64,000 nt of DNA from Treponema sp. Marseille-Q4130 (GTDB taxonomy: Bacteria > Spirochaetota > Spirochaetia > Treponematales > Treponemataceae): positions 17,536-81,535 of the forward strand of contig NZ_JACSET010000011.1 in assembly GCF_014334325.1 (NCBI RefSeq), given 5' to 3'. Made by a program: the position numbers and the translations under genes. Shown piece after piece: positions 561-62,507 of this stretch. Under the pieces are notes generated by a model. It ran no database searches, had not been told where the DNA came from, and saw only the letters and a list, made by a program, of their open reading frames with translations. How positions within the stretch are numbered: the stretch's first letter is position 1; the number at the start of each line of letters is the position of its first letter.

Positions 561-905
561 TAGGAGGTACGATAAAAAGCGCCGTCTGAAATATCGCCGT
601 CGCTGGAGTCTAGAGCCGAAAAACGCTGAAGCGTTTTTCTTTTATCGGAGACACTCGCGATTTCTGTACATTGCTCGAAATCGCACCGTTCTTATCTCGA
701 GTTTGCTTGGATGTTTGCAGAAGGCGTGTATGCGTGTTGTTTCGATAACAATCGTATGAATATGATACACTGTATTTTGCAAACTCGATTATTAAACGTG
801 TGCGCTTCGCTCGAAACTGCGCGCTGACGCGCTTGTTGCGAGATACGCGCCCGGCTAAAAAATTTTTCGGAAGTTGCAACTTCCTACAAAACTTTTTATA
901 GGAGT
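561..905 (+). repeat. R1 interspersed repeat, copy a (long form)
   Basis: This non-coding unit matches 28796-29165 closely through its first 250 bases, starting at TAGGAGGTACGATAAAAAGC. It holds a CGAGTTTGC arm (688-696) and the matching GCAAACTCG (779-787) around a 80-base insert. It ends in a hairpin, GGAAGTT (869-875) / AACTTCC (878-884), flanked by the family's TTC and TAC (TGC in other copies) internal-loop bases. The last bases supply the AGGAG ribosome-binding site of the gene starting at 911. It is therefore probably the 5' leader of that gene. Confidence 0.8.
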
Positions 906-910
906 ATGAT

Positions 911-1456
911 ATGAAAACAAAAATTATTAAAAAGACGGTTGCGGCGGGTATCGCTGCGTTGCTTTTGGCAGGTTCGGTTTTTGCCGATTTGCACAAATCG
1001 AATTCGAAAAAACCGCCGCACGGAGGCGACTTTGCGCAGCGCGAAATGAATGCGGACGGCCGCTCTCCTATGCACGGGGAAAAACCCGTGAAGCGCGTCA
1101 GAGCGGCAGGTCCTATGCAAAATTCCGTCATGGGCGATTGGATCGTCCGTGATACCGATAAAATCGTCAAAGTGGAATTCGATCGCGACGGAACGATGGA
1201 AATCACGTGGAAACAGGGTTTTGCATCGGAAGTCGAATGGAAAGGCTATTGGACTGCGACCGATTCGGAAATCACGTTTACCGTGAAGAGCAAAGAAACG
1301 GAAACGTGGACGAACGGCAAAAAAAAGGAAACGCGTGAAAGCATGAACGAAGTGTGGAAGATTGCATACGTGAGAGACGGTGACACGCTTACGCTCACAT
1401 CAAGCGATTTACCGAAAGAGGTCGCGGGCGGTACCGTGTATACTTGGGAGTATTGA
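911..1456 (+). CDS. secreted lipocalin-like protein, function unknown
   Basis: This 181-residue protein starts with a clear Sec signal peptide (MKTKIIKKTVAAGIAALLLAG, cleaved near VFA-D). A basic, proline-rich linker follows to about residue 70. A compact C-terminal domain of about 110 residues begins MGDWIVRD and has alternating strand patterns and a G-W-x(4)-D-R-D-G-T-M motif. That layout resembles the small lipocalin-like domains common in treponeme exported proteins. No cysteine follows the signal, so it is likely periplasmic rather than a lipoprotein. The start is fixed by AGGAG at 899-903, inside the R1 repeat. No catalytic residues are apparent and the function is unknown. Confidence 0.7.
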   Translation: MKTKIIKKTVAAGIAALLLAGSVFADLHKSNSKKPPHGGDFAQREMNADGRSPMHGEKPVKRVRAAGPMQNSVMGDWIVRDTDKIVKVEFDRDGTMEITWKQGFASEVEWKGYWTATDSEITFTVKSKETETWTNGKKKETRESMNEVWKIAYVRDGDTLTLTSSDLPKEVAGGTVYTWEY

Positions 1457-1568
1457 AAAATCGCGCGCATGGCGCACTGCACTGCACATCGAACGGGATA
1501 CGCGATTTACGTGTTTCGTTCGTGTCGGCAAGGTGTGCGTCGTGCAAAAAAAGTTTCATCTATTTTAT

Positions 1569-2066
1569 CTATTCGATAAAAAGATAGTCTGAAAAATAGA
1601 TCGCTTGAATTTTGTTGAGCGAAAGGCGTTCGTTGAGCGCCGTAAGCAAGTCGGCTTTGATTTTTTCTTCACCCCGTGAGAGCAGTTCGTCTTCCGTGTA
1701 CTTTGAAAAATATTCCGTGATGACGGCTCTCATGATCGTGCTTTTTTGCGAAAGCTCTTCGTAAAAAGCCCTGTCGCCTGCGGGATAGGAAAACCACGGC
1801 GTGATGACGACGGGAGTTCCGCCGGCCGCTTTTTTCGGATCGGGCTTTGTCGCCGCGCGCAGTCTTCCGAGACCCGTAAAGGCGTCGAGCTTTGTGTTGT
1901 CGGGTGTGCTCATCGATGAAACGGCAAGCGGGGACGGATCGGGAGTGCGGATATTTTTTCCGGGCTGCGCTTTTTTCAACGCGAACGACACGAGCGTTCC
2001 GATGACGATCGCCGCCGCCAAAAAGGAAGCGATGAGGACGAGCACGCGATTTAAAATCGATTGCAT
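1569..2066 (-). CDS. fliL: FliL-family flagellar basal body-associated protein
   Basis: This 165-residue protein has a single N-terminal membrane segment (about residues 7-29) and a periplasmic domain. Its last 30 residues, IKADLLTALNERLSLNKIQ then a IYFSDYLFIE-type strand, match the conserved FliL C-terminus. FliL sits in the inner membrane around the flagellar stator and affects torque. A Ser/Pro-rich linker separates anchor and domain. It starts 3 bases after the hflX stop, so the two are probably co-transcribed. No other flagellar gene lies nearby, so it may be a FliL-like paralogue outside the main motility operon. Family assignment is fairly sure; the exact role is inferred. Confidence 0.65.
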   Translation of the reverse strand: MQSILNRVLVLIASFLAAAIVIGTLVSFALKKAQPGKNIRTPDPSPLAVSSMSTPDNTKLDAFTGLGRLRAATKPDPKKAAGGTPVVITPWFSYPAGDRAFYEELSQKSTIMRAVITEYFSKYTEDELLSRGEEKIKADLLTALNERLSLNKIQAIYFSDYLFIE

Positions 2067-2069
2067 ACG

Positions 2070-3317
2070 TTACTCTACCAGATACGGCGTGATGAGCGCA
2101 AGTGATTTTCCTCGCGCGTATACCGTTACGTGTACGCCGTCTTCGAGCCATTGTTCGCTTAGGATGCGGCCGCCTTTGCGTATGTCGGCGAGGAGCGGGC
2201 TTTTGTCCGGAGGCAGTACGCATTTACAGCGTTTTCCGAACAGTGCGCCCGCAATTTTATCGCCGAGTTCGTCGAAGCCCGTCTTTTCTTTTGCGCTTAC
2301 GGACAGAGAGTCGGGAAATTGTGCGCGCAGTTCGGCAAGTCTTCCGCCGTCTTTTTTGAGCGCGTCGATTTTATTTAATAATACGAGGCGTTCATTTTCG
2401 ACCGCTCCTATTTCGCCGAGTACGCGGCATACGGTTTCGTATTGCTTTTCCGCATTCGCATCCGAAGCGTCTATGACGATGAGCAAAAGATCGGCGCGCA
2501 CCGCTTCTTCGAGCGTCGATTTGAACGCATTGACGAGCGTGTGCGGAAGGTTTGAGATAAAGCCGACGGTGTCGGTAAGCAAAACCGCGCTTCCGTCTTT
2601 TATCCGCATGCGCCGTGTCGTCGGGTCGAGCGTTGCAAACAGTTTGTTTTCGACGAATACGTCCGCTCCCGTAAGCGCGTTCAAGAGGCTTGATTTTCCG
2701 GCATTCGTGTAGCCGACAAGCGCGCACGACGGAACGGAAACCTTGTTCCTCCGCTTGCGCTGCGTAACGCGCCCTGCGGCGACGCTTTTGAGTTCCTGTT
2801 TGACGCGAAAAATTTTTTCGCGCACTTGGCGCTGATCGAGTTCGAGCTGCGTTTCTCCCGAACCCTTTGCACCGTAATTGCCGCCTCTCTGCCTTGCCAA
2901 ATCGCCGTACATGTGCGCGAGACGCGGCAGCGAATATTCGAGGCGGGCGAGTTCGACTTGCAAAACCGCTTCATGCGTTTGCGCGCGCGACGCGAAGATG
3001 CGCAAAATCACTTCTTCCCTGTCGAAACAAGGCAAGCCCGAAAGCTTTTCCCAGTTGCGCTGCTTCGTCGGTTCGAGCGTAAAGTCGAAGACGATGCAGT
3101 CCGCTTCGCACTCTTTCGCACCCGCTGCGATTTCTTCGGCTTTGCCTTTGCCCATGCCGTATGCCGGCTGCACTTCAAGCCGCGAAAGCGTAATCGCCGA
3201 AACGGTTTCCATGCCGAGCGTGTCGATAAGGCTTTTGAGTTCTCGAAGATCGTTGCCCGGCTCTCCGACGAGCACGCAGCGGATTTTCCGCTCCGCTTCT
3301 TTTTGCAGTTCTTCCAT
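2070..3317 (-). CDS. hflX: HflX ribosome-associated GTPase
   Basis: The 415 residues have the usual HflX order. An N-terminal HflX domain carries the FDFTLEPTKQRNWEK signature at 78-92. A helical linker has GSGETQLELD at 152-161. The GTPase domain has G1 GYTNAGKSS (202-210), G3 DTVGF and G4 NKID. HflX binds the 50S E site and splits stalled 70S ribosomes in stress. I chose the ATG at 3317 because it opens the conserved domain; the frame runs on upstream for 108 codons into the promoter region of the divergent gene and looks non-coding there. The gene is followed after 3 bases by fliL. Confidence 0.93.
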   Translation of the reverse strand: MEELQKEAERKIRCVLVGEPGNDLRELKSLIDTLGMETVSAITLSRLEVQPAYGMGKGKAEEIAAGAKECEADCIVFDFTLEPTKQRNWEKLSGLPCFDREEVILRIFASRAQTHEAVLQVELARLEYSLPRLAHMYGDLARQRGGNYGAKGSGETQLELDQRQVREKIFRVKQELKSVAAGRVTQRKRRNKVSVPSCALVGYTNAGKSSLLNALTGADVFVENKLFATLDPTTRRMRIKDGSAVLLTDTVGFISNLPHTLVNAFKSTLEEAVRADLLLIVIDASDANAEKQYETVCRVLGEIGAVENERLVLLNKIDALKKDGGRLAELRAQFPDSLSVSAKEKTGFDELGDKIAGALFGKRCKCVLPPDKSPLLADIRKGGRILSEQWLEDGVHVTVYARGKSLALITPYLVE

Positions 3318-3546
3318 CGCGCCATTATACGGATAAACGCGCCGTTTTGAAAGTATTTTAAAAGCGTGCATATATCTGAGGAAAACGGGCGGTGTCTCAA
3401 AACACGATCGCTTGTTGCCGTCCTTGACTTCCGATCGAATCGTCGGTTTTGAAAGCGAATCGAAAAGCGATACTTTGCGTGCGAGGGGGGACGGCACTGT
3501 ATTTTTATCCGTTTTATGCCGATACTGTAAGAGGAGACAGGACGAA

Positions 3547-6105
3547 GTGACTTCAGGACAGAAAATTGCCGTAAGTATTTTAACGACAGCCGTCATATTT
3601 GCCTGCTTTGTCGTTGCGGCATTTGCGGGGCTTTTTTCCAAAATCGAAGCGCGGTTTTACGAACCGGCTAAGATAGCCGATATTCGAAAGCAGCTCGATT
3701 CGGTCGCGGAATACGGCGATACGTACATCAATACGCTCCTCGAACAAATCGATAGCGGAGAAAATGCATATCTCTCCGACAGATCCGTCTCTTCGTATGC
3801 ATTGACTTCTCCGTCGGACAGCGACGTGCAGCAGCGCGCACGCAGGACAGCCGCTCTTTTTTCCGAAGCGAGCGGACTGAACGGCATTCGCTTCATCGAC
3901 GCAAACGGTCGCAGCGTTCATTTCAGTACCTATTCGTCGGACTTACTCAAACAAACCGACAATATGCGCATATATAAAAATTACGATGAACTGCGCACGC
4001 CGCTCGGCAACGACGAATTCGCGTTTTTCAAAGTGTCGGTACCCGATAGCGAAGAAGGAGAGCGGTACCGCATCGTATTCGACGGGGAAGACAATCGAAT
4101 ATTGCTTGCGTTTCCCTTTTACGATCCCTACGACGTATACCGCGGTACGATGATCTTTTACGTAAACGCGCAGGATTTCAACCGTACGCTTATCGAACGG
4201 AATCTCACGACGGTCGCGAATACGAGCGATCTTATTTCCGATACCACCGGAGCGATCGGAGGATTCGTGTTCGGTATGCCGTCTGTCGGACACGACGATA
4301 TCGAGCGGGAGACGATTGCACGCTGGCGCGACAATTCCGCAGGTCCCGATAAGATAGCTTCGATACCCGCGAGCGGCGGCTCTGCAAAGGAATCGTATTG
4401 GATTTTGATTTCAAGCAACCGCAGCCGCTTTATGAAAGCTGCGGGCGTTTACCGAGATTCGATATTTCTCATGCCGCCAGCCGTACAGTTTCTTTTGCTC
4501 GCGTGCGTTTTTATTACGCTGTTTCTCACGATCTTTATGCTCTTCAATCTGCGCCGCGACGATATGGTCGTCATACGTGACAGAGTGAAGCGCTTTCAGC
4601 TTGCCCTCATCAACGAATATTTTGAAAATAAAGAAAATATAAATTGGGCGGACGTTTCCAAAAAAATCGCAGGGCGGAAAACCGAAGTTTCCGAAGCGAT
4701 CAAAGAGAGTCTCGGAAAGCGGGCAAGGCGGCATCGCAAAGAAACCAATGCGCTCATCGATAAAAGCTGGAACGAGATCATCGGCGCGCTGAACGTCAAA
4801 ACCAATGCGGACGCTGCGAGCGCATTGCAGGACTCAAAAGAGATCCGCAGAATGCTCGAAGAGATTTTGCGCAGCGGTACGATACATGTGCAAAGCGCCG
4901 TACCGCCTGCAACGGAAGCGGTGCCGAAAGAGATATCGCTTGCGCAGGAAAGCACGGAAAAAGGCATAACGTTTGAAACAAACACGGATGCGGTCAACGC
5001 GGCGACCGAAGCCGAAGAATCCTTTTTTAATAATATGATCGCGACCGAGTCCGCCGAAAAGGATGTGTCTTCCGTACATGCATCGCCTGCAAATACGCCT
5101 GCAGAAAATATGTCCGGTCATTCTGCAGAACCCTTTGAAGGCGGACAAATGTCTGCTGCGGAAGACGCCGACAGCGATACCGCGCAAAAGATCGATCTCT
5201 TCGGTGAAATACCCATGGCGAAAGAAAACGCGAACGGTTTGTCCGATGCGGATATAGAAATCGTCAACGCGGCGACGGAAGCTGAAGAAGTCTTTTTTGA
5301 AAATATGTCCGCTGCGGAAAAAGATACGGCTTCCGAAAATACGGCGCCTGAGATCGCTGCGGAAAGTGAAGCTTCGGCTGCTCCCGTCGAAAACGCGCGT
5401 GATATACATCGGGATGAAAGCGCCGAAATCGGTGCGGACAAAAAAGACCAAACGGAAGATGTCGACTTTTTTATGGGCGACGGCGCAGAAACGAAAACCG
5501 ACACTCCGGCAGAAAGTACAAATTCCGCCGTGATTGCAAAAGCCGATGCGAAGCCCTCATTTGAGATGGAAGAGGTCGATATCGATTCGTTTATGGAAAC
5601 GGCGGGCGATGTTCCTTCTCCGGATGCCGATATCTTTGCCGAACCGCTGCAGTTGGGCGAGCCGAAAACCGATACGGTCGCTCATGAAGAAATCAAACCG
5701 ATCGATTTTGATGTCGTTTCCGCGCCGAACTTTTTATTTCTCGATGAAAATCGAAGCGGAGAAAAGCAGGGATATAATTCCGCTGCGGCGAAAGCCGATA
5801 CCCCGCATGAGGTGTCGTTCGTCGACGGGGAAAACGCGGCAGATCGTACGGATGCGGCGGGCGACAGTGATGCTGCTGCCGATGCGGTGGATATTCTGCC
5901 GTTTGAAAACGAAAAAAGCGCCGTTCCCTTTTCGTTTACATCGTTTGCTTCGAACGAAGCGAAGATACAAAACCTCTCGCCCGTTTCCGATGACGTCATC
6001 ATCGAAGGAAAGGACGGCGTATTTTCGATCGCGCCCGATATCGCACTTGACGGCGTTTCCCAAGACGAATCGTTCAAACGCTTAGTCGATTCCGTTATTA
6101 ATTGA
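3547..6105 (+). CDS. two-pass membrane protein with extracytoplasmic sensor-like domain and long acidic tail
   Basis: Starting from GTG at 3547 (GAGGAG at 3531-3536), the product is 852 residues. It has a membrane helix at about 6-28, an extracytoplasmic region of about 280 residues, a second helix at about 310-338 (FLLLACVFITLFLTIFMLF) and a 510-residue cytoplasmic part. The outer region resembles a Cache-type sensor in size and placement, though I cannot confirm the fold. After a short basic helical stretch the tail becomes very rich in Glu, Asp and Ala and is probably disordered. It repeats short hydrophobic modules: NAATEAEESFFNNM (near 482), NAATEAEEVFFENM (near 573), and acidic segments ending in FM. 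No kinase, GGDEF or chemotaxis domain is present. It may be a scaffold. The function is unknown. Confidence 0.7.
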   Translation: MTSGQKIAVSILTTAVIFACFVVAAFAGLFSKIEARFYEPAKIADIRKQLDSVAEYGDTYINTLLEQIDSGENAYLSDRSVSSYALTSPSDSDVQQRARRTAALFSEASGLNGIRFIDANGRSVHFSTYSSDLLKQTDNMRIYKNYDELRTPLGNDEFAFFKVSVPDSEEGERYRIVFDGEDNRILLAFPFYDPYDVYRGTMIFYVNAQDFNRTLIERNLTTVANTSDLISDTTGAIGGFVFGMPSVGHDDIERETIARWRDNSAGPDKIASIPASGGSAKESYWILISSNRSRFMKAAGVYRDSIFLMPPAVQFLLLACVFITLFLTIFMLFNLRRDDMVVIRDRVKRFQLALINEYFENKENINWADVSKKIAGRKTEVSEAIKESLGKRARRHRKETNALIDKSWNEIIGALNVKTNADAASALQDSKEIRRMLEEILRSGTIHVQSAVPPATEAVPKEISLAQESTEKGITFETNTDAVNAATEAEESFFNNMIATESAEKDVSSVHASPANTPAENMSGHSAEPFEGGQMSAAEDADSDTAQKIDLFGEIPMAKENANGLSDADIEIVNAATEAEEVFFENMSAAEKDTASENTAPEIAAESEASAAPVENARDIHRDESAEIGADKKDQTEDVDFFMGDGAETKTDTPAESTNSAVIAKADAKPSFEMEEVDIDSFMETAGDVPSPDADIFAEPLQLGEPKTDTVAHEEIKPIDFDVVSAPNFLFLDENRSGEKQGYNSAAAKADTPHEVSFVDGENAADRTDAAGDSDAAADAVDILPFENEKSAVPFSFTSFASNEAKIQNLSPVSDDVIIEGKDGVFSIAPDIALDGVSQDESFKRLVDSVIN

Positions 6106-6213
6106 TAATGGGTAATTCTCCTGTGCCCGACTTAATTACCGATTACACATTACCAATTACCAATTGTATTGCTATGTGTTGTCGCGCGCGTCGTTTTTAT
6201 TTATACTGTCGGC

Positions 6214-6639
6214 ATGAAATATTCGGCACCCCTTGTCGTGCGCACCTATGAATGCGATGCGTACGGTCACGTAAACAATGCGGTTTATTTGAACTTTCTC
6301 GAATACGGAAGAATGGAATACCTGCATCAAATCGATTTCGATTATAAAAATCTCGTTGCGGACGGATACTATCTGTACATTACGCATATCGACATCTATT
6401 ATAAAGCGTCGGCCTTTCTCGACGATGAATTGTTTGTCGATGTCGAGCCGGTAAAGCTCGGCGTCATTCAGGGAACCTTTCATCAAATCGTGCGCAAAAA
6501 AGACGGGACCGTCTGCGTTGAAGCCGATGTCACGTGGGCGAGCGTCAAAAACGGTAAGCCTGCGAAGATCCCCGAAAAATACATGGTCGATGGCTTGTAC
6601 CCGGACGGAGACGCGCGAAAACAAAAGGCGGTGCGCTGA
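6214..6639 (+). CDS. acyl-CoA thioesterase, hotdog fold (4HBT/YbgC type)
   Basis: This 141-residue protein has the 4HBT opening motif CDAYGHVNNAVYLNFLEYGR near residues 13-32, with the family's catalytic Asp and the G-H-V-N turn. It should be a cytoplasmic homo-oligomer that hydrolyses acyl-CoA or acyl-ACP thioesters; the natural substrate is not predictable. The ATG at 6214 is preferred over the in-frame upstream ATG because it begins the conserved fold. Its stop overlaps the metN start (TGATG), so it is translationally coupled to metNI. No functional link between the thioesterase and methionine uptake is apparent. Confidence 0.85.
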   Translation: MKYSAPLVVRTYECDAYGHVNNAVYLNFLEYGRMEYLHQIDFDYKNLVADGYYLYITHIDIYYKASAFLDDELFVDVEPVKLGVIQGTFHQIVRKKDGTVCVEADVTWASVKNGKPAKIPEKYMVDGLYPDGDARKQKAVR

Positions 6640-7661: not shown

Positions 7662-7664
7662 CGG

Positions 7665-8327: not shown

Positions 8328-8340
8328 AACGCTTTCGCAA

Positions 8341-8364: not shown

Positions 8365-8418
8365 CAAGCGGCGGATGGTACGCGTTTGTGGGGTCGAATG
8401 AGTGCGTAACGACGATCC

Positions 8419-10370: not shown

Positions 10371-11063
10371 ATGAAATTAAACACAGATTACGGCGAAAAG
10401 TCGGATGAAAAGCCATTTGAACACTTTTCTAAGGACTTATTTGAAGAATTGCAAAAACATCCTTTCGGCAGTATGCCTAAAAGGGACTTGGACTGTTTGC
10501 TCTTTTTTCTTTTTGAAAAGCACGGCCTTTTAGAAGGAAAAAACAACAGAGAAAAGGCTCAAAATCTTCAAATAAACGAAACAAGGTTAAAATCCTACAT
10601 TCTTGATGCAAATGCAAAGTACGGTAAGGATGAAAAGGCGAAAAATCTTGTTAAATTATTGCAGAAGATGGGAGACGGCACTAAGGTCTCAATAGACGGC
10701 GATTATTTGGTATTCCTTGAAGAAGACCCTGTTATAAAAGCCGACTTTGTTCAAAGTTTAAAAGATGAGGGCTTTTACACCGATTCAAGTTTTAATAATG
10801 AGCTTATAAAGGTAAAACTTTCAAGCTTTTTGTGCTTTGCCAAAAATAAGGGGTTTTTAAACAATAAAAAACTTCTTGACATTGTAAAAAGCGATGAAAA
10901 AAGCACAAAACTGATCAAGCAATTTATTGATAAGAATAAGAATGTAAAAGAAATGGCTTTAGGTGTATTAAAAATCATACAAGCACAAAACGGCTTTGGC
11001 ATAGGTACATTTATAAGCCTTTTTGAATACGGAAAAGATATATTCACAGCTAAAATAAATTAA
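10371..11063 (+). CDS. hypothetical protein in AT-rich insert
   Basis: This 230-residue, lysine-rich, soluble protein has no recognisable domain. Codon use is clearly AT-rich compared with flanking genes, which suggests horizontal acquisition. The start has a strong GGAGG (10359-10363). Its stop codon overlaps an ATG of the next gene (TAATG), so the two are probably one transcript. The helical pattern and phrases such as KGFLNNKKLLDIVKS suggest an all-alpha fold. It may be a cytoplasmic partner or chaperone of the downstream lipoprotein, but that is only context. Confidence 0.6.
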   Translation: MKLNTDYGEKSDEKPFEHFSKDLFEELQKHPFGSMPKRDLDCLLFFLFEKHGLLEGKNNREKAQNLQINETRLKSYILDANAKYGKDEKAKNLVKLLQKMGDGTKVSIDGDYLVFLEEDPVIKADFVQSLKDEGFYTDSSFNNELIKVKLSSFLCFAKNKGFLNNKKLLDIVKSDEKSTKLIKQFIDKNKNVKEMALGVLKIIQAQNGFGIGTFISLFEYGKDIFTAKIN

Positions 11064-11074
11064 TGGGGGTTTTT

Positions 11075-12775
11075 ATGAAAACATCGAACTATGCAAGAAA
11101 AATTTTAACGGGAGCGGCACTCTTTATGCTGTTTACCGGTTTGTTTACAGGCTGTCCGCAAAACATTGAGGACAAAGCAGTTTCCGTAGAGAGTGTAAGG
11201 CTCGATAAAACGGAACTGGATCTCGGGGTAGAAGAAAGCTATAAGTTAAGTGCAGCAATTACCCCTGCGAATGCAAACAACAAAAAAATAACGTGGGCTT
11301 CGGACAACTCCGGAATTGCAAAAGTGGACCAAAACGGGAATGTAAGGGGTAAGGCCGATGGTACTGCCCTAATTACCGTAACCACAGAAGACGGAGGCAA
11401 AACCGCAACTTGCACCGTAAAGGTAAAGTTTATACACATAGATGGTATAAGTTTTGATAAAAATGAGCTCGACCTTGGGATAGGAGAAAGCTATAAGCTG
11501 ACTGCAACAATCGATCCTGCAAATGCAAGCAACAAAAAAATAACGTGGGTTTCGGACAAGCCTGCAATTGCGGAAGTAGACCAAGACGGGAATGTAAGGG
11601 GTAAGGCCGAAGGTACCGCTGTAATTACAGCAACTACGGAAGACGGAGGCAAAACCGCAACTTGCACCGTAAAGTTAGAAGAAGTAGTGATCCTTATTCC
11701 AAGCCCCGATAAAAAAGACATTTATATTAAAGCCGAAAGTTCAAGCGGTAATATAACTGTTATAGGCTGTACCCAAACGGAACTTACAAGCGGAACGGAA
11801 ACCACCTTAAATGCAACAAGCGATAGGGTTATCTTAAAAGGAAATATCAGAATCCTAGACTGCCACGGCAATCAGCTTACAAATCTCTATGTACAGGGTT
11901 TAAATGACTTGGAATCGCTGTACTGCTATGAAAATCAGCTTACAAGCCTGAATATGCATGGTTTGTATAACTTGGAGCGGCTGGAGTGCCACAAAAATAG
12001 GCTTACAAACCTTGATGCGCGGAGTTTGTATAAGTTGAAATGGCTGGACTGCCACGGCAATCAGCTTACAAGCCTTGATACGTGGGGTTTGAGGAAGTTG
12101 GAAGAGCTGGACTGCAACAGCAATCAGCTTACAAGCCTTGATACGTGGGGTTTGAGGAACTTGGAAAAGCTGAACTGCAACACCAATCAGCTTACAAGCC
12201 TTGATGTGCAGGATTTGAACAACTTGAGATGGTTGGAGTGCGGCAGAAATAGGCTTACAAGTCTTGATGTGCATAGTTTGAATAGATTGCAATATCTGTG
12301 GTGCTATGAAAATCAGCTTACAAGCCTTGATGTGCAGGGTTTGAATAACTTGAACTGGCTGGACTGCAGCGACAATCAGCTTACAAGCCTTGATGTGCAG
12401 GGCTTGAATAACTTGAACTGGCTGGGGTGCTCCGAAAATCAGCTTACAAGCCTGAATGTGCAGGGGTTAAATAACTTGAACTGGCTGGGGTGCTCCGAAA
12501 ATCAGCTTACAAGCCTGAATGTGCAGGGGTTAAATAACTTAAAAACGCTGTGGTGCAACGTCAATAAGCTTAACCGAGATGCTTTTACAAAACTCTTTAA
12601 CGATTTACCTACGAGGTATAGCAGCGATAACGCATATTGCGTTCTTTATACCGAAGGAAATGGTATTATCGAGGGAAACTATAGGGACTTTACCCCGGAC
12701 GAACTGCAAGTAATCAAAAATAAAAACTGGAAGCCATATAAACTAAACAAGAACAATTGTCAAGAGGCACTATAA
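11075..12775 (+). CDS. surface lipoprotein with two Big2 domains and leucine-rich repeats
   Basis: The 566-residue product has a lipoprotein signal ending LFTGC (Cys27). Two bacterial Ig-like (Big_2) domains follow (about 35-110 and 118-200), each with DLG-ESYKL and GTA-ITVTTEDGGKTATCTV. About 13-14 leucine-rich repeats of 21 residues come next (about 255-500; consensus LTSLDVQGLNNLNWLDCSDN), then a short cap. The domain order resembles treponeme LRR surface proteins such as LrrA/BspA-type adhesins, so a role in adhesion is plausible. I prefer ATG 11075, with GGGGG 5 bases upstream, over the overlapping ATG at 11063. The AT-rich composition matches its upstream neighbour. Repeats 12433-12495 and 12496-12558 are virtually identical DNA. 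Confidence 0.85.
   Translation: MKTSNYARKILTGAALFMLFTGLFTGCPQNIEDKAVSVESVRLDKTELDLGVEESYKLSAAITPANANNKKITWASDNSGIAKVDQNGNVRGKADGTALITVTTEDGGKTATCTVKVKFIHIDGISFDKNELDLGIGESYKLTATIDPANASNKKITWVSDKPAIAEVDQDGNVRGKAEGTAVITATTEDGGKTATCTVKLEEVVILIPSPDKKDIYIKAESSSGNITVIGCTQTELTSGTETTLNATSDRVILKGNIRILDCHGNQLTNLYVQGLNDLESLYCYENQLTSLNMHGLYNLERLECHKNRLTNLDARSLYKLKWLDCHGNQLTSLDTWGLRKLEELDCNSNQLTSLDTWGLRNLEKLNCNTNQLTSLDVQDLNNLRWLECGRNRLTSLDVHSLNRLQYLWCYENQLTSLDVQGLNNLNWLDCSDNQLTSLDVQGLNNLNWLGCSENQLTSLNVQGLNNLNWLGCSENQLTSLNVQGLNNLKTLWCNVNKLNRDAFTKLFNDLPTRYSSDNAYCVLYTEGNGIIEGNYRDFTPDELQVIKNKNWKPYKLNKNNCQEAL
12433..12558 (+). repeat. near-identical 63-bp tandem duplication within the LRR region
   Basis: Two adjacent 63-bp units, each one 21-residue LRR, match base for base over nearly all their length. 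Neighbouring units have diverged. This points to very recent duplication or gene conversion. Confidence 0.8.
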
Positions 12776-22885: not shown

Positions 22886-23614
22886 ATGGATTTACGGAAA
22901 ATATGTATCGTTCTTGTGCGTCCCGAAGAAAGCCGCAATATCGGGAGCGCGTGCAGAGCGTTGGCAAACAACGATATCGCCGATCTCCGCATCGTCGGCA
23001 AAAAAAGCGATTATGATGATGCGGCGGTACGCACGCTTGCGCTCCATGCGGCGGATATTTGGGATGGCGCACGCTTTTTTCATTCGATCACCGAGGCGAC
23101 ATCTGATTGTACGCTTTCGGCAGGTACGACGCGACGGCGCGGCAAAAACAGAAAAGGTAAACTTTTACTGCCGGAAGAATTCGCCGTAAAAGCGGCCGAT
23201 ATCTCAGACGCACAGGGCACCGTTGCGGCGGTGTTCGGAAACGAGCGCACGGGACTTACCGATGAAGAACTTTCCGAATGCACGCTCGGTGTTGCTATAC
23301 CGTCAAGCGAACACTTCGCTTCTCTCAATCTTTCCCACGCCGTTCAGATGATCTGCTATGCCCTGTTTCGGGAAAAGAGAAGCGGCATAACGGGCTATAC
23401 GCCGCTACCGCTTTCACGCATCGATGAAACCGTTTCGGTCATCGCGGACAATTTGCAAAAAATCGGATTTTTCAGCGTGACGGGCAGGCGCGATATGGAA
23501 AAGTTCTGGCGGGCGCTACTGTCGCGCGCAGCGCTTTCGGAAGGCGAAGCGCAATACATGGAAAAAATATTTACGAAAGCCGCAGGTCTCGCCGCTCGAA
23601 ATCAACAATCCTGA
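22886..23614 (+). CDS. trmJ: tRNA (cytidine/uridine-2'-O-)-methyltransferase TrmJ-like (SPOUT)
   Basis: This 242-residue SpoU-family enzyme has all three SPOUT motifs: VLVRPEESRNIGSACRAL near the start, VFGNERTGLTDEE in the middle and IPSSEHFASLNLSHAVQ with the trefoil-knot Asn. A C-terminal helical extension matches TrmJ, which methylates the ribose at position 32 of tRNA using S-adenosylmethionine. The last codons run into an R3 repeat, so the C-terminal NQQS may be repeat-derived. TrmJ is more likely than another TrmH-family member because of length and the EESRNIG motif. Confidence 0.85.
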   Translation: MDLRKICIVLVRPEESRNIGSACRALANNDIADLRIVGKKSDYDDAAVRTLALHAADIWDGARFFHSITEATSDCTLSAGTTRRRGKNRKGKLLLPEEFAVKAADISDAQGTVAAVFGNERTGLTDEELSECTLGVAIPSSEHFASLNLSHAVQMICYALFREKRSGITGYTPLPLSRIDETVSVIADNLQKIGFFSVTGRRDMEKFWRALLSRAALSEGEAQYMEKIFTKAAGLAARNQQS

Positions 23615-23737
23615 CGCAAGCGTCGGGGCACAGTGCTCAATGTTTCGCACTGTGTGTTCTCATAAGGTGGTTGCAATCGCCTTTAATACCCTTTGTTACG
23701 ACGCCAGCGTCGGGGTATTAAACCCTCCGCACGAATA
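23602..23737 (+). repeat. R3 repeat, copy A (full length)
   Basis: It reads from ATCAACAATCCTGACGCAAG to CCTCCGCACGAATAA and contains two GACGCAAGCGTCGGGG-like direct repeats (23612-23627, and 23700-23715 with one change). The reverse complement of 35881-36018 matches about nine bases in ten. It begins over the last codons of trmJ. Confidence 0.85.
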
Positions 23738-23786
23738 AAATTAATAATTAGGTCAAACTCGGCTTTCGACCGATTAATAATTTTTG

Positions 23787-24469: not shown

Positions 24470-24637
24470 ATGAAAAAGGCAAACGATAAAAGAGTTAACA
24501 ACGATGAACAGAGAGCCATATTCAGCGTGTCGTGCAGTGTCGCGGAACGGGAAAAAATTAAAAAGCTTGCGAAGAAAAACGGCATGACGATCTCGGGCTA
24601 TATCCTTTGGTGCTGCTTGAAAATCGGTATCAAATGA
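24470..24637 (+). CDS. small ribbon-helix-helix DNA-binding protein
   Basis: The 55-residue product has an Arc/CopG-like pattern: a beta strand AIFSVSCSV, helix EREKIKKLAKKNGM, turn, and helix TISGYILWCCLK. Such proteins are dimeric repressors, often antitoxins. No Shine-Dalgarno is visible, in keeping with the near-leaderless promoter. A perfect palindrome overlaps the stop codon and a twin lies 54 bases on, which could be its operators. No cognate toxin is directly adjacent, so it is either an orphan antitoxin or a regulator of the damaged module downstream. Confidence 0.65.
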   Translation: MKKANDKRVNNDEQRAIFSVSCSVAEREKIKKLAKKNGMTISGYILWCCLKIGIK

Positions 24638-24695
24638 TACCATTTTTTATTGATTACACTTTTGTATTCACTCTATTTTGGTATCATTTGATACC
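24626..24695. promoter_or_regulatory. paired palindromes GGTATCA-TGATACC
   Basis: GGTATCAAATGATACC (24626-24641) and GGTATCATTTGATACC (24680-24695) are reverse complements of one another. The first is followed by ATTTTTT and could also act as a terminator; the second sits in a longer imperfect palindrome ending CTATT/AATAG. They are candidate operators for the RHH protein. Confidence 0.6.
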
Positions 24696-24767
24696 GGAAT
24701 AGAGTTGCCGATATTGCTTGAAAAAGACGAAGAAACGGGATAGATTTAATACGTAGGAGACAGTGCT

Positions 24768-28795: not shown

Positions 28796-29165
28796 TAGGA
28801 GGTACGATAAAAAGCGCCGTCTGAAATGTCGCCGTCGCTAAGGTCTGAAGCCGAAAAACGCAAAGCGTTTTTCTTTTATGTGAGACACTCGCGATTTCTG
28901 CGCATTGCTCGAAATCGCAGCGTTCTTATCTCGAGTTTGATTGGATGTTTGCAAAAGACGTGTATGCGTATTGTTTCGATAACAATCATATGAATATTGA
29001 TATACCTATTTTGCAAACTCGACTATCTAGCGTGTGCGCTTGTGCGCACGGCTAAGAACTTTTTCGGAAGTTGATTCGAAGTCCGTGAAAGCGGACATAT
29101 AGAATCGGTTCTTTGCAGAACGAGCCGCAGGCTCTAACTTCCTGCAAAAGTTTTTATAGGGAGCC
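28796..29165 (+). repeat. R1 interspersed repeat, copy b (long form, serC leader)
   Basis: It repeats 561-905 closely for its first 245 bases, including CGAGTTTG / CAAACTCG arms around a similar insert. The terminal hairpin is long: AACTTTT-TTC-like loop-GGAAGTT pairs with AACTTCC-TGC-AAAAGTT. Its apex carries about 65 extra bases forming three small hairpins (GTCCG/CGGAC, GTTCT/AGAAC, GAGCC/GGCTC). The unit ends in the AGGGAG ribosome-binding site of serC. The 130 bases before it (28665-28795) hold only the boundary hairpin. Confidence 0.8.
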
Positions 29166-35862: not shown

Positions 35863-35880
35863 TTGTCTCTCCGTCAGTTT

Positions 35881-36018
35881 TTATTCGTGCGGAGGATTTA
35901 ATACCCCGACGCTTGCGTCGTAATAAAGGGTATTAAATCCGACTGCAACCACCTTATGAGAACACACAGTGCGAAACACTGAGCACTGTGCCCCGACGCT
36001 TGGGGCGGGGTTGTTGAT
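35881..36018 (-). repeat. R3 repeat, copy B (full length)
   Basis: The reverse complement matches 23602-23737 over about 135 bases, including both GACGCAAGCGTCGGGG direct repeats (one altered to GCCCCAAGCGTCGGGG). It covers the 3' end of der and supplies its last dozen codons and stop. Confidence 0.88.
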
Positions 36019-40078: not shown

Positions 40079-40220
40079 TGCTCCCATAAAATTTTTGCAG
40101 GATGTTTCGACATCCGAAAAAGTTTTTAGTCGCGTGCGCATCTTTCAACGAGGAACTTGGCTCCGACGTTTAAGGCGAGCGCACACGTCGAATAGTCGAG
40201 TTTTCCAAGACTTGACATTC
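40079..40220 (-). repeat. R1 interspersed repeat, copy c (HAD gene leader)
   Basis: On the minus strand it reads from an AAAACTCGAC arm through CGTGTGCGC to the hairpin GGATGT-CGAA-ACATCC, flanked by TTC and TGC internal-loop bases and a AACTTTT / AAAATT lower stem. It ends with the GGGAG site of the HAD gene. Relative to other copies the upper stem has a compensated A-T to T-A change. Confidence 0.78.
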
Positions 40221-42220: not shown

Positions 42221-42600
42221 GTTCCTTAAAATGCGGCATTGCAGGAAGTGTCAACTTCCGAAAATGACGCATTAGTGCGCGGAAGCGCACACGTACATCC
42301 GCGAGTTTTCGAAAGAAAACTCGAAGTTAAAAGTGCCGCGCTATTTCAGCGGCGCTTTTAAACGTTCCTTAAAATGCGGCATTGCAGGAAGTGTCAACTT
42401 CCGAAAATGACGCACTAGTGCGCGGAAGCGCACACGTACATCCGCGAGTTTTCGGAAGAAAACTCGAAGTTAAAAGTGCCGCGCTATTTCAGCCGCGCTT
42501 TTAAACGTTCCTTAAAAATGCGGCATTGCAGGAAGTGTCAATTTCCGAAAATGACGCAGTCGTGTGCGTGCGCGCACATGTACATCCGCGAGTTTTACTG
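42221..42600 (-). repeat. R1 tandem array, copies d, e and partial f
   Basis: Two complete 143-bp units (42221-42363 and 42364-42506) and a 94-bp partial unit (42507-42600) lie head to tail. Each contains TGCGGCATT-GCA-GGAAGT ... ACTTCC-GAA-AATGACGCA (plus strand), a GCGCACACGTACATCC block and a CGAGTTTTC / GAAAACTCG hairpin. They are nearly identical to one another and similar to 62366-62507. This fills most of the gap between vapB and glyS. The array is in the minus orientation, pointing at vapB. Confidence 0.9.
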
Positions 42601-45449: not shown

Positions 45450-45497
45450 CGGGAAAGGCGGTTTGCGGGGCGGTTTTCTTTTTTGGCAATTTTTTTA

Positions 45498-45551
45498 TTC
45501 GTGCGGAGGGTTTAATACCCCGTCGCTTGCGTCGGGGTTGTTGATTATTTC
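45498..45551 (-). repeat. R3 repeat, copy C (short, internally deleted)
   Basis: Its reverse complement joins ATCAACAACCCCGACGCAAG directly to GCGACGGGGTATTAAACC and CCTCCGCACGAATAA. It keeps both ends of the full element but only one GACGCAAGCG-type direct repeat. It abuts the 3' end of the XRE gene. Confidence 0.8.
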
Positions 45552-56175: not shown

Positions 56176-56245
56176 CGCCGACCGCCGCGCCTTATTGCCG
56201 AATAACACCGCTCAAACCGAACGCCGCGTTTTATGCAAGCCGGCG

Positions 56246-56270
56246 TTTCGAAACCCGCATTCATCCTAAT
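56246..56270. repeat. 25-bp direct repeat, left copy
   Basis: TTTCGAAACCCGCATTCATC and CTAAT recur exactly at 56590-56614, so the R2 copy between them is flanked by direct repeats. Confidence 0.85.
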
Positions 56271-56273
56271 CAG

Positions 56274-56600
56274 CATGGATTTCGAGTTTTCAAAACTCGA
56301 AATCTTCCGACCGTATTTATGCATCAATGAACGGCGAGTTTCGAAAACAGATACAAGTGCACGGCGGCGAAGTTCCCGCTGCGTGCTGAACCCTCTGAAC
56401 GCGTACGCGATGCGGCGCAGCAGCGGGAGACACGCGTGCGACTTTGTGCGTTCAGCTTGCAGAAGTTTTGCTTTAAAAGCACAACCGGAGCGTAAGCGGG
56501 GATTCCGCTGTGAGAGCCGCGTACGCATACGTCTACAGAGATTGTACGACGGTCATTTTCGCCGAAAGGGCAGCTTTATTAGTTGATACTTTCGAAACCC
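56274..56600 (-). repeat. R2 structured repeat, copy 2
   Basis: On the minus strand it opens GTTTCGAAAGTATCAACT (cf. GTTTGGAAAGTATCAGCT in copy 1) and closes with GAAACTCGCC and the hairpin TTTCGAGTTTT / AAAACTCGAAA (plus-strand 56280-56302). Its inner 240 bases differ from copy 1 but also form stems, including CTGAACGC/GCGTTCAG. It fills the gap between the propeller protein and the 5'-nucleotidase. Confidence 0.75.
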
Positions 56601-56609
56601 GCATTCATC

Positions 56610-58385: not shown

Positions 58386-58609
58386 AATGCCTCCGTAAAA
58401 TTATTAATTATCGTATACAAGGGGCGGCGTTCTGTCAACGATGCGAGGGAGAGGCGGTCTTCGGAAAGGTTTATTATGAGAGCGCAGAAAATTTAGGATG
58501 AAGGTTGATAAACCGGTACCAAATCGTATAATAAAAGTATCGCATAATATGATGAAAATTTTGATTTTTGTTTTATACGGGTCCAGATAAAGATTTATTG
58601 TTTTCATGA

Positions 58610-58615
58610 TATAAT
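58610..58615 (+). promoter_or_regulatory. -10 box upstream of the DUF262/HNH gene
   Basis: A perfect TATAAT lies 63 bases before the start, in AT-rich DNA; no convincing -35 box was found. Confidence 0.4.
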
Positions 58616-58677
58616 GAAGAAAAGTAAAAAGAATCTCAGCTAAATGTCATACAGCGACACCTAAGGAGAACTGAAAA

Positions 58678-60765
58678 ATGAAAGCGAGTGAAACAAGTGT
58701 TCTCAGTTTTATCGGCGGATTGGATAAAGTTTTTATTATTCCGCCATTTCAGAGAAATTATGAATGGTCAAATAAACAGTGTGAAGAATTATTCTACGAT
58801 ATAGAAAATGCTTTTAAAAAACAGAAAACACATTATTTAGGAAATGTGGTATATTATTTCGGTGAAAAAAACGGTGCCGAATTCCAAGAATTAATTTTAG
58901 TAGACGGACAACAAAGAATAAGTACTATTGTGTTACTTTTGTGTGCACTCCGTGATTGCGAAAAAGACGCAGACCTTCAAAGTAAAATAACTGCAAGATA
59001 TTTAAAAAATGATACAAATATCGATAAGTTTAGAATTAGATTAAAACAAACATCTTATGATTATCAAAGTTTTCTTTCTGTTGTAGAAAAAACTCCCATT
59101 AAAGATGAAGACAATAATATTATAAAGAATTACAAACGTTTTTTAGAATTATTAAAAAAAACAGAGATTTCATTAACCGATATTTATAATACAATTCAAA
59201 AATTAGAAATTGTAGGTGTAAATCTTCAAATTGAAAATGATTTGGAAACTGTTCAAACAATTTTTGAAAAAATTAATTCAACCGGCAAACCGTTAAGCGC
59301 AGCAGATTTAATTAGGAATTATCTTCTAATCTCAAAATCGCCGGATGAGCAACAGCGCTTATATGATAATTATTGGATAAATATTGAGAGAACTGTAGGT
59401 AATGAATTTATTTCCCGTTTGACAAAAAATTATTTGATTATCAAAACGTATGAGGATGTTGCAAATGAAGAAATTTATTCGATTTTTAAAGAATATTTTT
59501 CAAATGTAAATATATCACATGAAAAAATATTACAGGAGTTAGAAAATTATTCAAAATATTTTAATTGGATGAGAAATTTCAATAGTCCGAATAAAGAATT
59601 GAATAAACATATTCAAGAATTAAATGCATTAAAAACTGAAGACGTATATCCGTTATATTTGTATTTAATGCATACACTTTATGATAAAAATATAAACGAG
59701 CTGGTAAAGATATTCAAACTTTTGTCTGATTTTTTGATTCGTTACCGTATTGTTGCTCCTTCCGGCGGTGGAGGGGCTCTGCGTTCGGTTATTCAAAAAT
59801 TGATAGAAAGAATGGATAATGGTGAAATAGAAGCTTCATACGATGCAATTTATTTTGAGCTATCAAACAGTAACACAAAGTCAGGGCGATATCCGAATGA
59901 TGAAGATTTTTATTCCGCTTTAACTCAGTCTAGAAAATATAATCATTCGTATGGCAAGGTGCTGTTAAGAAAAATAGAAGAGTTTGAAACAAAAAATATA
60001 GGTGTTTCTTTAGAAGATATAACGGTTGAACATTTTATGCCTCAAACTCCAAATCAATGGTGGTACGACAATTTCGGAGGTAAAGAAAATACATATCTTA
60101 TTTATGAAAAATATCTAAACTGTATTGGAAATCTCGGCATTATGTCTCAAAGTTATAATTCTTCGAATTCCAATAAGTCATGGCCGGATAAGTTACAGTT
60201 TATAAATCAAGTTCAATTTAATCTTACAAAAGAAGTTGCAAAAAATACCGAATGGAAAGAAGAACAAATTACTTCCAGAAATAACGAGTTGGCAATAAGA
60301 GCTTGTCGAGCAATTCTTAAACCTCTCGAAAGAACCAAACCGTTAATGGCTGTCGAATTTGAAAGCGGTTCATACCCGGCATCGGATATTACAACAAATA
60401 TGAGCGGTTCTTATGTAAAAGATGTATTGTATAAAAATGAATCTCTGAGAGTCAGCTCTTGGAGATATTACTTTAATGCGGTTTGTAAAATTGCAAGTGA
60501 ATTGGATTTTGCAAAATTTAAAGACGTTGTTTCGGATAATATAATCCATAAATCACATAATAAGTATCGAAAGGATGAAAAAGATCCTGTAATTTCGATG
60601 GATAAATCTTTACTCGTTGAACCTAAAAAAATCGGCAACACGGATATTTATTCGGAAGGTTCTTTGAGCTCGGAAAGAGCAAGAGTTTATGCAAAACAAC
60701 TTTTGGATATCTTTAAAATAACAAATGATATTCAAATTCTTGTAGAAAAGAAAGAAGACGAATGA
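58678..60765 (+). CDS. DUF262-DUF1524 (GmrSD-like) nuclease with extra C-terminal domain
   Basis: The 695 residues have a DUF262 domain with IPPFQRNYEW (21-30), VDGQQRIST (75-83) and FEKINSTGKPLSAADL. A helical middle follows, then an HNH-like DUF1524 with VEHFMPQTPNQWW near 450 and LNCIGNLGIMSQSYN near 480. An additional domain of about 130 residues (about 560-695) contains SGSYVKDVLYKNESLRVSSW. It should act alone as a type IV restriction factor against modified phage DNA. The composition is strikingly AT-rich between GC-richer housekeeping genes. AAGGAG lies just upstream. Confidence 0.82.
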   Translation: MKASETSVLSFIGGLDKVFIIPPFQRNYEWSNKQCEELFYDIENAFKKQKTHYLGNVVYYFGEKNGAEFQELILVDGQQRISTIVLLLCALRDCEKDADLQSKITARYLKNDTNIDKFRIRLKQTSYDYQSFLSVVEKTPIKDEDNNIIKNYKRFLELLKKTEISLTDIYNTIQKLEIVGVNLQIENDLETVQTIFEKINSTGKPLSAADLIRNYLLISKSPDEQQRLYDNYWINIERTVGNEFISRLTKNYLIIKTYEDVANEEIYSIFKEYFSNVNISHEKILQELENYSKYFNWMRNFNSPNKELNKHIQELNALKTEDVYPLYLYLMHTLYDKNINELVKIFKLLSDFLIRYRIVAPSGGGGALRSVIQKLIERMDNGEIEASYDAIYFELSNSNTKSGRYPNDEDFYSALTQSRKYNHSYGKVLLRKIEEFETKNIGVSLEDITVEHFMPQTPNQWWYDNFGGKENTYLIYEKYLNCIGNLGIMSQSYNSSNSNKSWPDKLQFINQVQFNLTKEVAKNTEWKEEQITSRNNELAIRACRAILKPLERTKPLMAVEFESGSYPASDITTNMSGSYVKDVLYKNESLRVSSWRYYFNAVCKIASELDFAKFKDVVSDNIIHKSHNKYRKDEKDPVISMDKSLLVEPKKIGNTDIYSEGSLSSERARVYAKQLLDIFKITNDIQILVEKKEDE

Positions 60766-60834
60766 CATTGCAGGTACTCCCGCAGGATGTCGTTTTGTAT
60801 GCACTCTTGGATCGCGTTCTTAAAACCGTTTTCA

Positions 60835-62352
60835 CTATCGTCTGTGCGCGAGCACTACCCGTGCGATGACGTCGCTTGCCGAAACGAAGGGATTGGCTTT
60901 TCCGATCGAGCGGTCTGCGACGAGGGGGATCGCTTCGAGCGTTTTGCCGTCAAGCACGTATTCGATGCTGCCGTATTCACTTCCGGCACGAACTCCGCCG
61001 TCGATCGAACGCGGCAAGTTTACGAGCACGCGCACGGAGGAAGCGGCGTCTTCGGGCGAGGCGCCAAGTATAAACGGAACGGTGAGCGCGGTAAAATCGT
61101 AGGCGGGCGTGAGGTATGTCCACTGCGCTTTTGCGCCGGTGACGGGGATAAAATAGCGGTGCACGGCGTCGGTTTTTTTGCAGTCGGCAAAGCGCGCAAA
61201 TGCCCATTCCATAAGCGTCGTTCCGTCCTGTATGCGGTACGCATCTCCCTCTCTTCTGTTTCGTCCCGGCCCGTTCATCGTTACCGATAAAAAACGCGTC
61301 GCGCCTCGGTGCACGGTGAGCGCGAGATTGTAGCCGCTTTCATCGATGTAGCCCGTCTTTAAGCCGTCGCATCCGGCGAGCTTTCCGAGGAGGGCGTTCG
61401 TGTTCTGCTGAGTAATGCCCATCGTGATCTTTTCGGGCAAGCCGTTTGAAAAATCCTGTGCGGTCGGTTTGCTTCGATCTTCGATCGGGAGATTGTGGAT
61501 TTGGGGATAGGTAAACGAAAGGCGCGAATGGAATTTGACAAGGGTGTCCGGAAACTTTGTGATATACACGCATGCGAGCATCGCCATTTCCCTCGCCGTC
61601 GTTTCGTTGTCGGCGCTGTAGCCGGACGCTTCGGAAAAATGCGTTTTCGTCAATCCCAAAAGCCGCATTTCGCGGTTCATGCGCTCGACAAAAGCTTCCA
61701 TACTCCCTGCGATATAATAGGCGAGCGCGTATGCCGCGTCGTTTCCCGAACACACGTCGAGACCGGTTAATAATTCTTCGACGGTGACGATTTGATCTTT
61801 GCCTAAAAACATGAGCGATGAATGGGGCAGCATATTACACGCCCACGTTTCGGGAGGCAGCGGTACGATATCGCCGTAGGAAATATTTCCGCGTTCGATT
61901 TCCTGCATGACGACGTACATGACCGCGATCTTCGTCATCGATGCCGGCGGGATGATTCTGTCCGCTTTTTTTTCGTAGAGGATGCTGCCGCTTGCGACGT
62001 CGATGAGGATGGCCGAGCCCGCTTCGACGGAAAGCTTTGCCGGAACGACGGGGTAGGGGAGCGGTTTTAAAATATCGTTCCGCGAGGGGTAAGCTTTATC
62101 GAGCGCATCGTCGAGCAGCTTTCGCTCGTTTTCGGTGAGCTCTCTCGGAGGAGCCGCCTGTTTGAATCGATAGAGACGGATCCCCGCAGTTCCGATAAAC
62201 GAAACGCAGAACACCGCAGTGAAAATAATAATTATTAATCGTATACGCCGGACGATGCTTCCGCTCTGCGCGGAGGATTCCCGCCGTGCCGCATTTCGTC
62301 CGCTGCCTTTTTGCCGTTCGCCTTTTGTCTTGCCGTCTTTTCGTTCGCTCAT
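60835..62352 (-). CDS. dacA: D-alanyl-D-alanine carboxypeptidase (PBP5/DacA type)
   Basis: The 505-residue protein has a basic cytoplasmic N-terminus, a membrane helix (about 36-58) and a serine peptidase S11 domain with S138-M-T-K141, SGN (202-204) and LKTGY near 325. A C-terminal beta-rich domain follows. It trims the terminal D-Ala of peptidoglycan stem peptides. Unlike PBP5 it is anchored by its N-terminus, with no obvious C-terminal amphipathic helix. An R1 repeat lies directly upstream. Confidence 0.9.
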   Translation of the reverse strand: MSERKDGKTKGERQKGSGRNAARRESSAQSGSIVRRIRLIIIIFTAVFCVSFIGTAGIRLYRFKQAAPPRELTENERKLLDDALDKAYPSRNDILKPLPYPVVPAKLSVEAGSAILIDVASGSILYEKKADRIIPPASMTKIAVMYVVMQEIERGNISYGDIVPLPPETWACNMLPHSSLMFLGKDQIVTVEELLTGLDVCSGNDAAYALAYYIAGSMEAFVERMNREMRLLGLTKTHFSEASGYSADNETTAREMAMLACVYITKFPDTLVKFHSRLSFTYPQIHNLPIEDRSKPTAQDFSNGLPEKITMGITQQNTNALLGKLAGCDGLKTGYIDESGYNLALTVHRGATRFLSVTMNGPGRNRREGDAYRIQDGTTLMEWAFARFADCKKTDAVHRYFIPVTGAKAQWTYLTPAYDFTALTVPFILGASPEDAASSVRVLVNLPRSIDGGVRAGSEYGSIEYVLDGKTLEAIPLVADRSIGKANPFVSASDVIARVVLAHRR

Positions 62353-62365
62353 CTTTTTACTGTCG

Positions 62366-62507
62366 TTCCTTTAAATGCGGCATTGCAGAAAATGTCGATT
62401 TTCGAAAATGCCGCATACGTGCGCGGGAGCGCACACGTATATCCGTGAGTTTTCGAAAGAAAACTCGAAGTTAAAAGTGCCGCGCCATTTCAGCGTCGCT
62501 TTTAAAC
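62366..62507 (-). repeat. R1 interspersed repeat, copy g (dacA leader)
   Basis: The plus strand reads TGCGGCATT-GCA-GAAAAT-GTCG-ATTTTC-GAA-AATGCCGCA (62376-62415), then the GCGCACACGTATATCC block and a GAGTTTTC / GAAAACTC hairpin. Both stems are perfectly paired, and the upper stem differs from the GGAAGT/ACTTCC of other copies by compensated changes. It lies between aroC and dacA, hairpin end toward dacA. Confidence 0.85.

Follow-up and report, generated by a model that had tools for sequence, protein, structure and literature searches.

A window of 64,000 nucleotides (nt) from Treponema sp. Marseille-Q4130 (contig NZ_JACSET010000011.1, positions 17,536 to 81,535) carries seven copies of a hairpin whose stems change while staying paired. 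The question raised by this locus is what kind of element keeps such a fold in so many places. The sequence-only reading of the window had known no named element of this shape; that claim did not survive a search of Rfam, in which the element is present as TD-1 (RF03155), with TD-2 (RF03162) on its other strand. TD-1/TD-2 is one short DNA element with four covarying stems, and many copies end in the Shine-Dalgarno sequence (SD) of a gene. Insertion sequences (IS) of the IS110 family with partly similar ends were found at SDs in related genomes, and TD-1/TD-2 are probably non-autonomous elements spread by an SD-programmed lineage of this family. Genomes and loci are cited below by working numbers (G and L).

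Identity and fold of TD-1

All seven hairpins were recovered at their reported places, with upper stems GGAAGT/ACTTCC, GGATGT/ACATCC or GAAAAT/ATTTTC and lower stems of the AAAACTTTT or TGCGGCATT type. Allowing up to 3 mismatches, a 26-nt probe gave 4 matches in the window and none in each of 100 window shuffles. The TTC/TGC internal loop, described as constant, is so within the window but not genome-wide, other copies of the same genome having TCC/CTC or TC/TTC. Each window hairpin is the 3' end of a longer element; these measure 143-144 nt, 344 nt and 368 nt, besides 5'-truncated copies. Read on the strand ending in GGAG or GGAA, a full element consists of the stems S1 (inner CTGAAAT), S2 (CGAGTTT..), S3 (GTGCGC..GCGCAC) and S4, the last being the hairpin first reported. 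The element contains no protein gene. Elements of the A/C-type start after a GGAG-like word and end in GGAG. B-type elements have the same structure, are bounded by GTTTAAA..TTTTAAGGAA and occupy mostly different sites. In the whole genome (2.79 Mb, 18 contigs), 45 matches to a B-type query and 72 matched pieces to an A-type query were obtained.

The Rfam scan of the window at gathering thresholds returned two tRNAs only. Below these thresholds, TD-1 matched six places. Three of these matches score 52.2-55.8 bits, with E from 2e-6 to 1e-5; the other three are weak, at 25.8-33.9 bits and E from 0.1 to 4.9, and the gathering threshold is 64.5. TD-2 matched three places on the opposite strand (38.0-47.4 bits; gathering threshold 48.7). 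Of seven loci of the same genome scored separately, three exceeded the TD-1 threshold (L022, L032, L034) and none that of TD-2. In relatives, all 13 loci passed for TD-1 and 10 of the 13 also for TD-2, always on the opposite strand and over S1 and S2. Because TD-2 matches the same loci on the opposite strand, TD-1 and TD-2 are taken as the two strands of one element. The TD-1 model, typed Cis-reg and found in Treponema relatives, shares S2, S3, S4 with a TTC/TGC-like loop and the final AUAGGA with the copies described here; it lacks S1, its label does not include the view of a DNA element, and the window copies reach at most 55.8 of the 64.5 bits. TD-2 shares its loci, on the opposite strand, and S1 and S2, whereas Rfam types it as a separate small RNA (sRNA). 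Among 118 genomes of the taxonomic family, TD-1 was detected in 52 at an E-value of 1e-3 and exceeded the gathering threshold in 30 of these; the 14 controls gave no match. Scoring was limited to 27 candidates per genome, so copy numbers are lower bounds. Among the literature matches listed (titles and abstract starts) there was no paper on TD-1 or on IS110 elements at SDs; TD-1 reportedly originates from a survey of 224 RNAs.

Covariation was measured in 39 full copies of up to 165 nt with a structure written by hand from the sequences, and compared with 500 shuffles and with slides of 1-3 columns. Pairing cells amounted to 91.9% (77.8% when shuffled), and 25 of 44 stem pairs were changed on both sides (17.7 shuffled). 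The covariation score was 0.378, compared with 0.125 in the shuffles and 0.042-0.095 after sliding. Further pair types showed no excess (52, shuffles 51.1). The copies are related and the stems come in blocks, so the cells are not independent events, and swapped stem combinations occur among the copies. With this limit, the proposal that covariation marks a selected fold was upheld: the fold appears to be kept by selection, because the stems covary far beyond both the shuffled and the slid controls. The competing thought that the copies are randomly drifting remnants of an IS or of a miniature inverted-repeat transposable element (MITE) was right in that they look MITE-like, but wrong in that the stems do not drift at random. 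A test of the folded strand in the 39 copies, comparing G-U with A-C cells, gave 39 and 55 overall, 27:12 in S4 and 12:43 in S1-S3, based on few independent events.

Reduced forms of the element were also observed. L138-L152 are mini-elements with S1 alone, S1+S2 or S3+S4, in most cases flanked by an SD on one side and a start codon on the other. By eye, L147 (G093) with S3+S4 and L151 (G053) with S1+S2 precede apparently the same gene.

Position before genes

In 35 of 39 A/C-type copies of the genome (those with an S4 of the AAAACTTTT type), the terminal SD is followed at 3-12 nt by the start codon of an open reading frame (ORF) of at least 50 codons; two of the four exceptional copies run into a second copy. 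The background for the same loci was 290 of 1652 GGAG words, the elements' own words included. The B bin of 51 copies (L039 being misfiled) held 18 that run into the next copy and 10 with some nearby start codon. Because the A/C-type overlies the ribosome-binding site and itself ends in GGAG, the gene keeps an SD. By eye, the genes downstream of TD-1 look unrelated. At L013, L027, L046, L065 and L066, related genes (ATGTTAATTGCCGA.. and ATGGCAAARCATAATCG..) are preceded by one TD-1 subtype, which was probably duplicated together with the gene.

Predicted openness of the SD was 0.53 in native copies of the genome (n=20) and 0.34 after shuffling (p 0.003), and 0.49 and 0.30, respectively, in copies of relatives (n=30, p 0.0003). 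The values are from folding prediction with 12 shuffles of the element letters each, dinucleotides kept, and near-duplicate copies make the p-values optimistic. A UUCCU able to pair with AGGAG, by which S4 would hide the SD, is present in some types only, as judged by eye.

Four sites (E0-E3) were compared among six species of the genus g28, which we take to be a T. denticola-like genus; empty sites were located by searching 20-kb stretches. E0 is full in G053 and G087, contains S1+S2 only in G080, is diverged in G100, cleanly empty in G070 (ATAAGGAGAAACAAAATG) and has a few extra letters in G093. The element at E0 has GGAGA on both sides, and the empty site of G070 a single GGAGA. E1, compared without G100, is filled in G053 and G093 and absent from G087, G080 and G070, with leftover letters that are possibly scars. 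E2 is filled in G053 and G080, reduced to S1 in G087 and to S1+S2 in G093, and empty in G070 (G100 unreadable). E3, again without G100, is filled in G053, G087 and G093 and empty in G070; in G080, TD-1 is directly followed there by a 1.4-kb insertion sequence. Both gain and loss of the element are possible explanations of these differences.

A simple target-site duplication was set aside, as left and right letters agree only slightly above chance. Private letters common to the left and right SD contexts were seen at L089 and L090, L174 and L082. In the orthologous L089/L090, both SD sides have changed together, pointing to some local homogenising or array contraction.

An IS110-family insertion sequence at Shine-Dalgarno sequences

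The gene of the insertion sequence encodes an IS110-family DEDD recombinase (PF01548, 2.1e-16; PF02371, 5.4e-6; copy at L188), whereas TD-1 elements of 143-368 nt lack a recombinase gene. PF01548 was detected in 11 of 45 genomes searched, with no match in the genome of the window. Ends were read for 17 copies (G080, G146, G015, G103, G079), and in all 17 the left boundary is GGAG followed by G..GATAAAA, and the right end is TGACTTTTTATGGGAG; further IS copies in G080, G103 and G114 stayed outside this reading. Such ends were not seen in L201 (G103), L207 (G140) and L197-L200, and copies from G042 and G114 carry different ends. Four of the 17 copies adjoin TD-1 or a TD-1 remnant (L188, L226, L210, L211; by eye), and 13 stand at SDs with no TD-1 seen alongside. 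In G080 and G103, a start codon, once TTG, follows 3-12 nt after the right end in 10 of 11 copies. Scanning a genome collection yielded 46 IS loci. They come from Treponema (including T. parvum, T. porcinum and T. bryantii), from other spirochaetes, from clostridia (protein identity 40-48%) and from a few organisms further removed. The right end was present in 27 of the 32 scanned loci read, and 16 of the 27 have a start codon 3-12 nt further on (5 of the 27 loci are cut off by a contig end). The clostridial loci L246-L260 hold IS110 relatives with about 40-46% protein identity in which the right end TGACTTTTTATRGGAG is kept.

The left non-coding IS end has a conserved fold, 7 of 46 pairs being changed on both sides in 17 sequences, with a compensated hairpin directly before the letters NNNNGGAG. 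Guides were read by the rules for IS110 bridge RNA taken from the available text of PMC11208160. The guide of G080 is AATGGGAG, and 6 of 7 left flanks end in ATGGGAG; that of T. parvum is GAAAGGAG, with 3 of 3 flanks ending in AAAGGAG; that of G103 is GTTAGGAG (three copies), with 3 of 3 ending in TTAGGAG; and that of G079 is GATGGGAG, with the flank ATGGGAG. For 38 guide/target pairs the summed contiguous match was 231, whereas 10,000 shuffles averaged 188 and reached 213 at most, none being as good. For the 19 distinct guides with one target each it was 116 (mean 97.4, maximum 113). The match was 7 or 8 letters long in 22 of the 38 pairs; only the letters before GGAG are informative, because SDs resemble one another. 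Seventeen of the 46 scanned loci (no readable guide or left end) and L242 and L251 (less than 8 nt of flank) were left out. By eye, a second, nearly constant word, GAATGGGAG, fits the nearly constant right end, as expected of a donor guide; the right-hand guides were likewise judged by eye. As read from these sequences, the putative bridge RNA of the IS is programmed for SDs, its guide spelling the adjoining SD variant.

The IS resembles IS621 of the IS110 family, as described in the text available of PMC11208160, in its DEDD recombinase, in the RNA of its left end and in a left-target guide identical in sequence with the left flank of the target. It differs in that guides end in GGAG and sites are SDs; no such target appeared among the literature matches listed. 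It likewise resembles the seekRNA-guided IS1111/IS110 elements, whose target is chosen by an RNA and in which guide and target naturally change together, whereas the targets named for those in the portion available of PMC11187229 are attC, REP (repetitive extragenic palindromic) and short linear sites. The QMITE2/IS1111 pair of Coxiella is comparable in that a short repeat is linked both to small RNAs and to an IS110-class element; in the excerpt of PMC5896051, however, the IS lands on the repeat, whereas here IS and repeat are alike at their ends and both stand at SDs.

The ends of TD-1 and of the IS show a partial resemblance. TD-1 of the genus of the window starts with GGAGGTACGATAAAAAGCG and ends with AAGTTTTTATGGGAG; of 26 A/C copies parsed, the exact GATAAAAAG was found in 21, TTTTTATGGGAG in 11 and TTTTTATAGGAG in 5. 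The IS of this genus starts with GGAGGTATGATAAAAAGG (G103) or GGAGGTAAGATAAAAAGG (G146). In g28, the IS starts with GGAGGTATGATAAAATAG and TD-1 with GATAAACAG, and two TD-1 copies (L093, L128) end with TTGACTTTTTATAGGAG as the IS does. One SD, within AAAATTTATTATTAGGAG before one gene, is occupied by TD-1 in the genome of the window (L033) and by the IS in G103 (L221). The former genome also contains a decayed IS copy on contig 16, 11823-12206, in three pieces of 77-82% identity. The preferred reading of these sequences, because of the similar ends, the shared SD site and the decayed IS copy, is that TD-1 descended from, or was captured by, the SD-programmed IS110 lineage.

Copies in the window and neighbouring repeats

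An A-type element occupies 561..904 (+), with the left GGAG at 563-566, the stems S1 to S4, an 80-nt side module in S1, the terminal GGAG at 901-904 and the ATG of the next gene at 911; its TD-1 match covers 791-903 (+) with 33.9 bits (E 0.097). A second, at 28796..29163 (+), has an extra module in the S4 loop, the left GGAG at 28798-28801, the terminal GGAG at 29160-29163 and a TD-1 match at 28935-29162 (+; 32.9 bits, E 0.15); the gene starting at its ATG, 29170, is presumably serC. A 5'-truncated A-type copy lies at 40081..40208 (-), its terminal GGAG being the reverse of 40081-40084 and the next ATG at 40070-40068 (TD-1 25.8 bits, E 4.9). The tandem array 42221-42596 comprises two full B-type units and one truncated at its 5' end, all on the - strand. 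The truncated first unit, 42508..42596, has no TD-1 match of its own. The second, 42364..42506, matches TD-1 with 52.2 bits (E 1.3e-5) and, at 42418-42510 (+), TD-2 with 41.7 bits. The third, 42221..42363, ends in GGAAC and matches TD-1 with 55.8 bits (E 2.3e-6) and, at 42275-42367 (+), TD-2 with 47.4 bits. A last B-type unit, 62365..62508 (-), lies between two genes of the - strand, the next ORF starting at 62352; its TD-1 match has 53.1 bits (E 8.6e-6), and the TD-2 match opposite to it, 62419-62511 (+), 38.0 bits.

The side module of the A-type elements (GAAAAACGC..GCGTTTTTC and a second hairpin; window 629-763 and 28863-28997) also occurs solitarily and in tandem in this genome and forms a separate repeat family. 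Matches in the fetched loci and the window merged into 84 stretches, 5 of which (L042 1536, L045 1487, L062 twice and L064) consist, by eye, of this module only. An optional two-hairpin module in the S4 loop has the same place in this genus and in g28 (window ~29075-29140; L169, L170, L171, L176, L184, L190). A further repeat family (TTTTTATTCGTGCGGAGG..) was found in inverted and direct orientation at 35878-35920, 45492-45534 and 23600-23740. Ten copies with 63-nt spacing at 11795-12661 lie within ORF 11063-12775 and represent a repeat protein, and a near-palindrome whose 34-nt arms are separated by 4 nt was located at 24625-24696, in surroundings poor in long ORFs.

Origin and meaning of TD-1

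The family itself, its covariation, its position at SDs, the occurrence of filled as well as empty sites, the similar ends and the match of IS guide and target are established by the sequences; that this IS110 recombinase moved TD-1, and that an open SD was selected for, we infer. Recombinases of the IS110 lineage would insert TD-1 in trans at SDs, with the matching donor ends of TD-1 serving as substrate; for IS621, according to the available text of PMC11208160, a 22-bp donor and a bridge RNA in trans are sufficient. The hairpins would be retained since they leave the new SD unpaired whatever sequence lies upstream. Several observations weigh against this spread by an IS110 lineage. The guide/target match is 4 letters or less in 7 of 38 pairs, the likeness of the ends is a matter of judgement over some 20 nt, and the IS has no S1. 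Most TD-1-rich genomes searched are now without an SD-type IS: of the 11 genomes bearing PF01548, five were seen with it, and none is present in, for example, the TD-1-rich G053, G087 and G093. G015 has the IS but no TD-1 match at an E-value of 1e-3. By eye, the left flanks of seven G080 copies of TD-1 do not end in ATGGGAG, the word of the G080 IS guide, so the present IS of G080 did not place them. Left and right SD letters of TD-1 agree somewhat above chance (2 nt before the SD, 41 compared with 33.8, p 0.006), which the IS110 route does not explain, and at E0 and E1 the element may equally well have been lost as gained.

A cis-regulatory RNA controlling translation, spread by gene duplication and recombination and serving, together with SDs, merely as a landing site of the IS, as REP does for other IS110 elements, is a possible but rather unlikely alternative. 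The covarying stems beside an SD, the Rfam type, the four of 17 IS copies against TD-1 or a remnant and the filling of E0 even in the most distant relative agree with such a role. It fits poorly with B-type arrays away from start codons, with stems in swapped combinations, with the 13 IS copies at SDs with no TD-1 seen alongside, and with the likeness of TD-1 to the IS's own ends rather than to its targets alone. A classical DDE-type MITE with a short target-site duplication containing the SD would account for the GGAGA flanks at E0 with their single counterpart in G070 and for some private left-right agreement, but left and right letters mostly differ, and no DDE element with TD-1 ends turned up, although no dedicated search was made; such an origin is improbable. 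An IS200/IS605- or REP-like single-strand transposase (HUH, Y1) acting through the hairpins, with GGAG as target word, seems scarcely credible as the mover. The element has a hairpin at either end, and the short word at its left flank recurs at its right end and is shared in tandem arrays, which had spoken for this model, but it was dropped on the Y1 transposase content of the genomes: PF01797 was detected in 7 of 34, in none of the 6 of g28 and none of the 5 of genus g33, both TD-1-rich, and the genome of the window has one partial match.

For the spread by an SD-programmed IS110 lineage, a wider version is given about an even chance. Bridge-RNA recombinases of spirochaetes and clostridia would be naturally programmed for SDs, insert at translation starts and bring a replacement SD. 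TD-1/TD-2, as passengers, would have equipped dozens of genes in each Treponema genome with a new leader whose SD is portable and self-insulating, and the stems would be kept so that landing does not silence the gene. If this is true, two unexplained Rfam families would be joined under one explanation, and a natural lineage of RNA-guided recombinases would target a working signal in front of many genes with gene-sparing built in. The 19 distinct natural guides, together with their targets, can serve directly as data on bridge-RNA targeting in elements other than IS621, and the model offers a testable reason why a mobile element may keep covarying hairpins beside a ribosome-binding site.

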